Assembly: GCA_019694435.1 (NCBI GenBank)
Contig: JAIBBZ010000012.1
Location: 62,001-126,000 of the forward strand
Length of the DNA: 64,000 bases
From: Pirellulales bacterium
Lineage (GTDB): Bacteria; Planctomycetota; Planctomycetia; Pirellulales; JAEUIK01
Direction: 5' to 3'
In this document: positions 23,137 to 24,986 of the stretch, piece after piece
Position numbering within the stretch: the stretch's first letter is position 1
Layout of the letters: each line of letters begins with the position of its first letter
Made by a program: the position numbers and the translations under genes
Notes under the pieces: generated by a model
What the model saw: only the letters and a program-made list of their open reading frames with translations
What the model was told of the DNA's origin: nothing
Databases searched by the model: none

Positions 23137-24324
23137 TTATTTGCCGGCTGCCGCGACGACTTTCTTGGCCGCGTCGGTCAGGCCCTCGGCCGAGATCAAA
23201 TCGAGCGCGCTGTCGGCCAGCATCTTGCGGCCCTGCTCGACTTCGGTGCCTTCGAGCCGGACGACGAGGGGGACGTTGAACCCCACGGTCTTGTAGGCCT
23301 CGAGCACCGCGGAAGCGATCGTTGTGCAGCGCATGATGCCGCCGAAGATATTGACTAGCACGGCCTTGACGTTCTTGTCGGAAAGCAGAATGCGAAAGGC
23401 CTCGGTCACCTGCTTGACGTCGGCGCCGCCGCCCACGTCGAGAAAGTTGGCCGGTTCGCCACCGTGCAGCTTAATCAGGTCCATCGTACTCATGGCCAGG
23501 CCGGCACCGTTGACCAGGCAGCCGATGTTGCCGTCGAGCTTGACATAGCTCAGGCCGGCCGCGGCCGCGCGCACCTCGGCGGGTTCTTCCTCGTCCAGAT
23601 CGCGCAGCTTGCTCAGCTCCGCATGACGGAACGAGGCGTTGTCGTCAAAATTCATCTTGGCGTCGAGCGCCAACAGTTCGCCCGACTCGGTCACTACGAG
23701 CGGGTTGATCTCAGCCAGGCTGCAATCGCAAGCGACGAACACCCGGCACAGCGCCGTGAGGAACTTCTCGGCCGCGCGCACCGACGCGCCCTGCAGGTTG
23801 AGCTTCTTGGCCAGCTTGCGCACCTGGTAAGGCTGCAGGCCCGCGTCGGGGGCGAACTTCTCGCGGAAGATCAGCTCGGGCGTTTCGTGGGCCACCTTTT
23901 CGATGTCCATGCCGCCTTGGTTCGACGCCATCAGCACGGGCCCGGCCGACGAGCGATCGACGACGATCCCCAGGTACAGTTCGCGGGCGATCTTGCAGCC
24001 CTCTTCGACCAGGACCTGGCGGACTACCTGGCCTTGCTCGCCGGTCTGAATCGTGACCAGCGGATTGCCGACGAGCGCCCCCGCCACCGCCGCGGCCTCT
24101 TCGGCCGAGCGGACCAGTTGCACGCCGCGCTGCTGCGGATTGCCGAGCAGGCTCCCCTTGCCGCGTCCGCCGGCATGAATCTGGGCCTTTACGACGGCCA
24201 ACGAGCCGCCCAGTTCGCGAAACGCGGCGGCAGCCTCGTTCGCGGTCCGAGCCACGATGCCTCGCGGCACGGGCACGCCGGCATCGCGAAGAATCTGTTT
24301 TGCTTGAAATTCGTGGATCTTCAT
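23137..24324 (-). CDS. sucC: Succinyl-CoA synthetase beta subunit
   Basis: 395 residues from the ATG at 24324-24322; the upstream extension has no family similarity. The start [22 protein letters not shown] is the conserved beta-subunit N-terminus; the ATP-grasp domain has [13 protein letters not shown], and residues about 250-330 carry the subunit-contact and Gly-rich parts ([29 protein letters not shown]). It binds nucleotide and succinate and works with SucD. A strong promoter lies about 50 nt upstream, and the divergent gene is a PerR-like regulator. Confidence 0.97.
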
Positions 24325-24375
24325 GGGCCGCTTACCGTTACTACCGTCGCGGGGAATGCTGATGAGAAACCGCGG

Positions 24376-24405
24376 ATTATAGAAGTCTCCCAATTTTTCG
24401 GTCAA
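24376..24405 (-). promoter_or_regulatory. Sigma70-type promoter of sucCD
   Basis: On the minus strand TTGACC (24405-24400) and a perfect TATAAT (24381-24376) are 18 nt apart. Transcription should begin near 24369, giving a leader of about 45 nt before sucC. Confidence 0.7.
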
Positions 24406-24466
24406 GGAACCCCGGCGCGGCAAGTGAACCGCCGCCGCGCACCGCTCGTCGTCCGAAGCTGCTGCG

Positions 24467-24495
24467 TTGACGCTAGTTGCGCGGCTACCTATAGT
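24467..24495 (+). promoter_or_regulatory. Sigma70-type promoter of the PerR-like gene, predicting a leaderless mRNA
   Basis: TTGACG (24467-24472) and TATAGT (24490-24495) have exact 17-nt spacing. Transcription would start at about 24502, that is at or within two bases of the start codons GTG 24501 / ATG 24504, and no Shine-Dalgarno sequence is present. Confidence 0.65.
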
Positions 24496-24503
24496 TCGGC
24501 GTG

Positions 24504-24986
24504 ATGAATACGTCGCCGCAACTTGACGCAGTTGGCGCAAACTCGCTCGACGAGGCTGCTGTGCGCCATGCTTTAGCCGACGCCGGTTGCCGGTATACCC
24601 AGCAACGGGCCGCCGTGCTGGCCTACCTGTCGAGTGTCCAGACGCATCCGACGGCCGAAGAGGTCTACACGGCCGTTCGCGAAGGGCTCCCGCGGATCAG
24701 CCTGGCGACGGTCTACAAGGCCCTGGAGGCCCTCGTAGCGGCCCGGCTGGCCACCAAGCTCAGCGGTGGCAATGGCACGGCACGCTACGACGCCCGCGGC
24801 GAGGACCACTATCACTTGCGCGACGTCGAGACCGGGCAGGTTCACGATTTGCCGGCCTCGTTCGACAACCAACTGCTGATCAAACTCGACCCCCGCCTCG
24901 TCGAGCGGCTGGCGCAGCAGGGTTTCGAGGTGACGGGCTATCGTCTCGAAGTCCTGGCGCGCCGCACGGCCGCGCCGGCCCGATAG
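24504..24986 (+). CDS. PerR-like Fur-family regulator lacking structural zinc cysteines
   Basis: 160 residues from the ATG at 24504 (GTG one codon earlier possible). It has the winged-helix N-domain ([31 protein letters not shown]) and a C-terminal dimer domain. The five regulatory metal ligands of B. subtilis PerR have counterparts at His48, Asp96, His102, His104 and Asp115, with identical spacing. The two CxxC pairs that hold structural zinc are absent; the only Cys is residue 29. Such proteins sense peroxide or Fe/Mn and repress target genes. It is divergent from sucCD, with both promoters inside 180 nt, so control of itself or of sucCD is possible (inference). Confidence 0.88.

Follow-up and report, generated by a model that had tools for sequence, protein, structure and literature searches.

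Within the window, a 64,000-nt stretch of a Pirellulales bacterium contig (JAIBBZ010000012.1), a Fur-family gene appears to have kept the regulatory metal site of the peroxide sensor PerR and to have dropped the zinc site that usually holds the fold together. This raises the question of whether such a protein is still a working sensor and, if so, to which genes and which signal it is tied. A Cys4 structural zinc site is usual in PerR but not universal.

A PerR-type ligand set without a Cys4 zinc site

The gene begins at an ATG (Table 1), although an in-frame GTG at 24501 would extend the product to 161 residues. Its product passes the Fur superfamily model PF01475 (E 5.6e-22, 80.4 bits, cut-off 23.1). 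Aligned with B. subtilis PerR (2fe3), both by phmmer and by profile, the protein has a gapless ligand region in which His48, Asp96, His102, His104 and Asp115 match PerR His37, Asp85, His91, His93 and Asp104, with identical spacings of 48, 6, 2 and 11. The initial annotation had described these five ligands at the same spacing, and the alignments confirm it and contradict the objection that they might fall out of register; the register itself rests on sequence alignment. An AlphaFold2 model built from a two-row alignment reached pLDDT 51 and pTM 0.43 and was kept out of the argument.

The sole cysteine is Cys29. Asp107 and Thr110 occupy the positions of the first CxxC, and the C-terminal CxxC is absent, in agreement with the earlier description of both pairs as lost. 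We found no Zur-type cysteine at the ligand positions, and in place of the Fur/Mur-type Glu at the last acidic ligand and Arg in the recognition helix the protein has Asp115 and Lys72. The genome contains two other PF01475 matches, one Cys4 Fur and one Cys4 Zur-like gene, which makes the window gene a third, distinct regulator.

Table 1. Positions in the window of the regulator gene, its ligand codons and the adjoining features
Feature	Position	Strand	Remark
Cys-less PerR/Irr-type Fur-family regulator gene	24504-24986	+	160 aa
His48 codon (PerR His37 equivalent)	24645-24647	+	His in 46/46
Lys72 codon, recognition helix	24717-24719	+	Asn in PerR and the six Irr examined; Arg in Fur
Asp96 codon (PerR Asp85 equivalent)	24789-24791	+	Asp 44/46, Glu 2/46
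His102-Tyr103-His104 (PerR His91/His93 equivalents)	24807-24815	+	both His in 46/46
Asp107...Thr110, place of the first CxxC in Cys4 Fur-family proteins	24822-24833	+	CxxC absent
Asp115 codon (PerR Asp104 equivalent)	24846-24848	+	Asp in 46/46; Glu in the Fur/Mur types examined
sucC, divergent neighbour (context only)	23137-24324	-	ATG at 24324
Regulator/sucC intergenic region	24325-24503		179 nt
Promoter-like TTGACG-17-TATAGT of the regulator	24467-24495	+	8 nt before the ATG
Promoter-like TTGACC-18-TATAAT facing sucC	24376-24405	-	separate from the regulator's

A conserved Cys-less clade

We searched 297 genomes of the window's class, its own included, and obtained matches in 45 at E 2e-37 or better, followed by a gap to 1e-22. 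Together with one relative from a Pirellulales MAG these make up a clade of 46 sequences, none of which contains a CxxC. The ligand positions are nearly invariant, with His48, His102, His104 and Asp115 kept throughout and Glu replacing Asp96 in two members. At the recognition-helix position, 39 members have Lys and seven have Asn. A lone Cys left from the first CxxC stands at position 107 in 36 members and Asp in the other 10, including the window protein, while position 110 is Thr in 28 and Ser in 18. Together with the PF01475 score, the constancy of ligands and missing CxxC across the clade means that the Fur-family observation is not due to chance.

The next-best matches of the class search were Cys4 proteins in 14 of the 14 fetched, 13 of them with Arg in the helix and 12 with Asp as the last ligand. 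A search of 392 genomes of the phylum, with 15 loci listed, yielded a second group of Cys-less proteins, these from genomes that lie outside the class; the 14 loci L125-L138 comprise nine of its members, one divergent Cys-less protein (L134) and four Cys4 proteins.

The Cys-less form is thus a clade, which had been one of the checks proposed for this gene. It also bears on the possibility that the gene is a decayed Fur copy, which the initial annotation had named as a reason to abandon its reading. The loss of four cysteines would fit decay, but 46 proteins have retained the ligands and the recognition helix, and this genome has its separate Cys4 Fur and Zur-like genes; we regard decay as barely credible.

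Genomic neighbourhood and the sucCD link

The gene lies back to back with sucC, as had been noted, and this arrangement had suggested a tie between sensing and the citric acid cycle. Across the clade, sucC adjoins the Cys-less gene in 3 of 46 loci (some stretches end at contig ends), the two genes have separate promoter-like sites, and no candidate box was found in the intergenic region, where the initial annotation had proposed to look for an operator. On these grounds we rejected the sucCD link. As the -10 element of the regulator ends so close to the ATG, its mRNA may be leaderless; by eye, the core TTGAC followed by CTATAGT is also seen in the five closest relatives (L064-L068).

Neighbours vary within the clade, with nusA at 25 and tatD at 26 of the 46 loci. 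No dps-like, ahpC or rbr gene lies beside the Cys-less gene at any of the 46 loci within up to 4 kb on each side (less at contig ends). In four genomes of the family coded f3, a Cys4 PerR-like gene is followed by ferritin-like (PF00210, 'dps') and AhpC genes, and at locus L148 (genome G114) by rubrerythrin; these loci are peroxide operons. The Cys4 PerR-like genes of the class (L109-L111 and L113, adjoining the ferritin-like and AhpC genes) and of the phylum (L148) encode the same ligands as the window gene, with Asp at the last site, but differ in having two CxxC and Arg in the helix, and they have no CAATAAT box.

Upstream of the Cys-less gene, 21 of the 46 loci carry a TTGACA-N4-TGTCAA motif (L073, L076, L079, L081 and 17 others; family code f6). 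The exact site is present once per genome in six of seven f6 genomes, twice in G411 and not at all in the window's own genome. The fetched stretch includes nusA at 20 of the 21 loci, and five further loci have nusA without the motif. We rejected this motif as the regulator's operator: its halves, read by eye, are -35 hexamers facing opposite ways, and it is apparently a bidirectional promoter shared by the regulator and nusA.

In G611 (L083:3390-4428) a second Fur-family gene stands in tandem with the Cys-less gene, overlapping it by about 30 nt, and the upstream gene looks Cys4-type by its end sequence. In G068 (L151:3545-4448) the gene for a divergent Cys-less Fur-family protein and a rubrerythrin gene overlap and have the same orientation.

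Comparison with PerR, Irr and Mur

We compared the ligand pattern with that of other Fur-family proteins, leaving out an Azospirillum row. All six alphaproteobacterial Irr sequences examined have the pattern H-N-D-H-H-D, which includes the PerR-type ligands; CxxC is absent from five, and the sixth, from Agrobacterium, has one near its C-terminus. Because Irr has these same ligands, PerR-type ligands alone do not identify a peroxide sensor, and the pattern speaks against Fur, Mur and Zur but not against Irr. The window protein differs from Irr in that its recognition helix has Lys instead of Asn and that the segment after Asp115 is longer. A haem regulatory Cys-Pro motif is a feature of B. japonicum Irr, although not of all Irr. 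No N-terminal Cys-Pro occurs in the 27 planctomycete rows, where the one Cys-Pro is at a C-terminus; it is missing from the six Irr rows as well, and the motif does not discriminate.

Zinc-site-free PerR-like proteins are already known, with Leptospira PerRA and PerRB and Irr as their representatives. PerRA (structure 5NL9) and PerRB, like the window protein, have the H-D-H-H-D ligands without CxxC, and PerRA also has Asp and Thr at the positions of the first CxxC. The relationship is distant (45 bits), PerRA has Asn where the window protein has Lys, and its placement in our trees is unsure owing to a long branch. The available portion of one paper describes PerRA and PerRB as without a cysteinate motif (PMC8638851). 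In the part of another that was available, Irr is likewise without the cysteinate motif, the PerR Asp and Asn are said to be conserved in Irr also, and PerRA and PerRB may be Irrs (PMC8638967).

In a PDB-derived set, the best profile match was B. subtilis PerR (2FE3, 3F8N; 116 bits, with the next match at 90), from which the window protein differs by the missing Cys4 zinc site and by Lys72 at the place of Asn61. The NCBIfam PerR models gave 81.6 bits (equivalog cut-off 180) and 63.9 bits, and the IrrA/Irr equivalog models gave 52.8 (cut-off 150) and 45.1 (cut-off 170). With these cut-offs missed and the PerR Asn replaced by Lys, we claim membership neither in PerR nor in Irr proper. A Mn-transporter-linked Sinorhizobium regulator scored higher against the family profile (121.8) than Ruegeria IrrA (97.6), and among plasmid records a PerR-type gene of Paenibacillus matched the window protein at 87 bits, compared with 53-54 bits for IrrA. 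Pairwise similarity does not favour Irr.

Another possibility is that the protein regulates metal uptake in response to Mn(II) or Fe(II), in the manner of the alphaproteobacterial Mur/Fur proteins, in which CxxC is missing too. Cys-less regulators linked to Mn transporters exist in Paracoccus and Sinorhizobium, and the Sinorhizobium score speaks for this reading. However, the four Cys-less Mn/Fe regulators in our comparison carry Glu at each of the two acidic sites and form a separate branch in the trees (98/90 and 99/91), and there was no metal transporter among 18 neighbour proteins scanned at the clade loci. We consider an uptake regulator of this type improbable.

Phylogenetic position

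Trees were built from 126-133 columns with the first-CxxC columns masked and the protein end with the second CxxC omitted. A first tree of 79 rows, without Irr and without the near-copies L071, L099, L102 and L108, placed the two Cys-less planctomycete groups in one clade (94/74) beside Cys4 PerR-like genes. Both trees that included Irr used 19 rows out of the 46-member clade. With two Irr and Leptospira PerRA added, all of these joined the Cys-less groups (81/91), and a cyanobacterial Cys4 row from Acaryochloris fell inside. A tree with six Irr omitted long or odd rows (L134, the Acaryochloris Cys4 row, L018 and Leptospira PerRA). It united planctomycete groups A and B with Irr in one clade (97/96) and nested Irr in group B, the second planctomycete group (100/98).

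On the six-Irr alignment, an AU test against a topology joining A and B to Cys4 PerRs without Irr gave p 0.022. The LG+G4 model recovered the same A+B+Irr clade (99/97), with the Cys4 PerR grouping at p 0.09. When group B was removed, A with Irr (p 0.33) and A with Cys4 PerRs (p 0.38) were both allowed. The trees are thus suggestive of a link between the Cys-less planctomycete proteins and Irr, one that rests on bridging sequences.

These results bear on the alternative of an Irr-like haem/iron regulator, a protein active in iron scarcity that is inactivated by haem at its His cluster and represses iron-rich proteins including peroxidases. The shared clade, the position of Irr inside group B and the AU result argue for it, as does the common ligand pattern. 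Against it stand the loss of resolution without the bridging group and the p value under LG+G4, the Cys4 row that sat inside the clade in one tree and was later omitted, and direct similarity, which is not highest to Irr by family profile, plasmid records or PerR models. The missing N-terminal Cys-Pro would also count against it, were it not equally missing from the six Irr rows.

A candidate operator upstream of peroxidase genes

We scanned three promoters of the window's own genome for dyads, those of the regulator, a bacterioferritin-like gene and a rubrerythrin gene. The scan revealed a 17-bp perfect palindrome, TCAATAATGATTATTGA, upstream of the rubrerythrin gene. Its 15-bp core, CAATAATNATTATTG, has the form of an AT-rich 7-1-7 box about 90 nt before that gene and also faces an opposite-strand ORF; it is the only site in the genome within two mismatches. 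The PerR box starts TTATAAT and the candidate box CAATAAT, but box form and targets are otherwise of the PerR kind. The box was absent from the regulator's own promoters (0/46), from the promoters of sucC and of the genome's own canonical fur, and from six Cys4 PerR-type promoters. In G530, an exact box precedes a gene for a KatG-type peroxidase (PF00141). In whole genome G000, the haem peroxidase family PF00141 had no match, and there were 43 AhpC-TSA matches, many in open frames of 600-1000 aa.

Allowing one mismatch, the class search found a site in 13 of the 45 carriers of the Cys-less gene and in 43 of the 252 other genomes. For a control pattern, the box read backwards, the corresponding counts were 4 and 32, which indicates that many sites are chance occurrences. 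Over whole genomes, box presence shows only a weak association with the gene. We examined the first-listed site in all 13 genomes with the gene and in 19 of the 43 without. It lay beside rbr, katG or a cytochrome c peroxidase gene (CCP, PF03150) in eight of the 13 and two of the 19, a comparison biased towards carriers because the peroxidase queries were drawn from genomes with the gene. Among the 13, it lay by canonical fur in two and by none of the searched genes in three; sites in G617 and G575 were by none of the genes searched.

Genome G555 has two sites, one by znuA and one by SulP/NYN genes. At the former (L189, G555:C42:112308), a CAATAATCATTATCG box precedes a ZnuA-type zinc-uptake gene, so that a similar box may serve a Zur-type protein at that locus.

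The box covaries with the regulator at a ferredoxin-CCP operon

As whole-genome counts were too weak to serve as proof, we turned to a single operon. The family coded f6 has a recurrent operon in which CCP follows a ferredoxin gene; PF03150 spans MauG as well as peroxidases, and this 'CCP' is a putative peroxidase. We searched 30 genomes, 24 of them carriers of the Cys-less gene and 6 non-carriers, of which 18 had the ferredoxin, 14 with and 4 without the Cys-less gene. The box C[AG]ATAATNATTAT[TC]G was scored over 14 positions within 320 nt upstream at a threshold of 12/14.

A box of at least 12/14 preceded the operon in all 14 genomes with the gene, and in each of them 0 or 1 of 500 shuffles scored as well. 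Six (G515, G487, G471, G407, G411 and G460) were already known when the consensus was drawn up, and the other eight were unseen at that point. None of the four genomes counted as without the gene, which are 92-94% complete, had the box (G440, G405, G417 and G422; best 9-10/14). Two further genomes have box and operon with no Cys-less gene detected, G428 (94% complete, with the genus code of carrier G460) and G491 (77%). Fisher's exact p was 0.0003, or 0.003 with these two added as box-positive non-carriers, values that treat as independent genomes that share ancestry. A rubrerythrin version of the test failed, as only 2 of 40 genomes had the gene at E 1e-20 or better. At the level of sequence, the box stands before genes of three peroxidase families and covaries with the Cys-less gene in one operon.

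The main rival for the protein that binds this box is canonical Fur, in which case the Cys-less protein would control other genes. AT-rich 7-1-7 boxes are the Fur form, and the box precedes canonical fur in G460 and G487, and in G555 at two mismatches. Against this, the ferredoxin-CCP operons of the four genomes without the Cys-less gene have no box, nor does the window genome's own canonical fur. A box before fur is also compatible with a PerR-type regulator, as B. subtilis PerR also controls fur. We judge canonical Fur an unlikely owner of the peroxidase boxes, though one to be taken seriously.

Proposed mechanism

The five-ligand site in PerR register, the absence of CxxC and the clade-wide conservation of both are shown by the alignments. 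Our best reading, to which we give about an even chance, is a homodimeric, zinc-site-free PerR/Irr-type regulator of iron peroxidase genes, with box binding and signal inferred. The protein would fold and dimerise without a structural Cys4-zinc site. With Fe(II) or Mn(II) bound by the His and Asp ligands, the dimer would hold the 7-1-7 box and keep peroxidase genes low, namely rubrerythrin here and KatG-type and di-haem cytochrome c peroxidases in relatives. Release could come through oxidation of one of the ligand histidines by peroxide, the PerR mechanism, or through haem or iron status, as in Irr. The initial annotation had proposed a zinc-independent peroxide or Fe/Mn sensor; in its broad form this is the most likely reading and gains from the peroxidase-linked boxes, but the ligands do not single out PerR.

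The available part of a study of R. sphaeroides gives a notable overlap between its Irr targets and the planctomycete box genes (PMC3413700). There, Irr boxes are predicted for two genes, mbfA, for a rubrerythrin-like membrane-bound ferritin, and ccpA, for a cytochrome c peroxidase, and Irr bound both in vitro and did not bind katE. In B. japonicum, according to the portion available, Irr oxidises its own ligand His63 (PMC4700492), which by elimination we infer to be the counterpart of PerR His37. The target overlap speaks for our best reading and also adds to the case for an Irr-like haem/iron regulator, which we nevertheless think somewhat unlikely. For the zinc-site-free PerR/Irr-type regulator that we prefer, direct peroxide sensing is somewhat more likely than Irr-like haem/iron sensing.

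Significance

A search of the literature found nothing on the function of planctomycete PerR or Irr, which is not proof of absence. The kind of protein is known from PerRA/PerRB and Irr, whereas the lineage, its helix residue and the candidate regulon look new. The available text of PMC8638967 describes Irr as limited to alphaproteobacteria and PerR as mainly Gram-positive. We tentatively raise the possibility, itself rather doubtful, that the Cys-less planctomycete proteins make up the wider family, with alphaproteobacterial Irr as an offshoot of it. They would then be zinc-site-free PerR descendants holding peroxidases (rubrerythrin, KatG and cytochrome c peroxidase) under a CAATAAT-type box, with peroxide control and Irr-type iron/haem control as two ends of one lineage.

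The planctomycete proteins represent a conserved zinc-site-free lineage in another phylum, present in 45 of the 297 genomes sampled from the window's class, with a candidate operator and candidate peroxidase targets. They offer an outside point on how peroxide and haem/iron sensing separated within the Fur family, and bear on whether the loss of structural zinc came before the change of signal.
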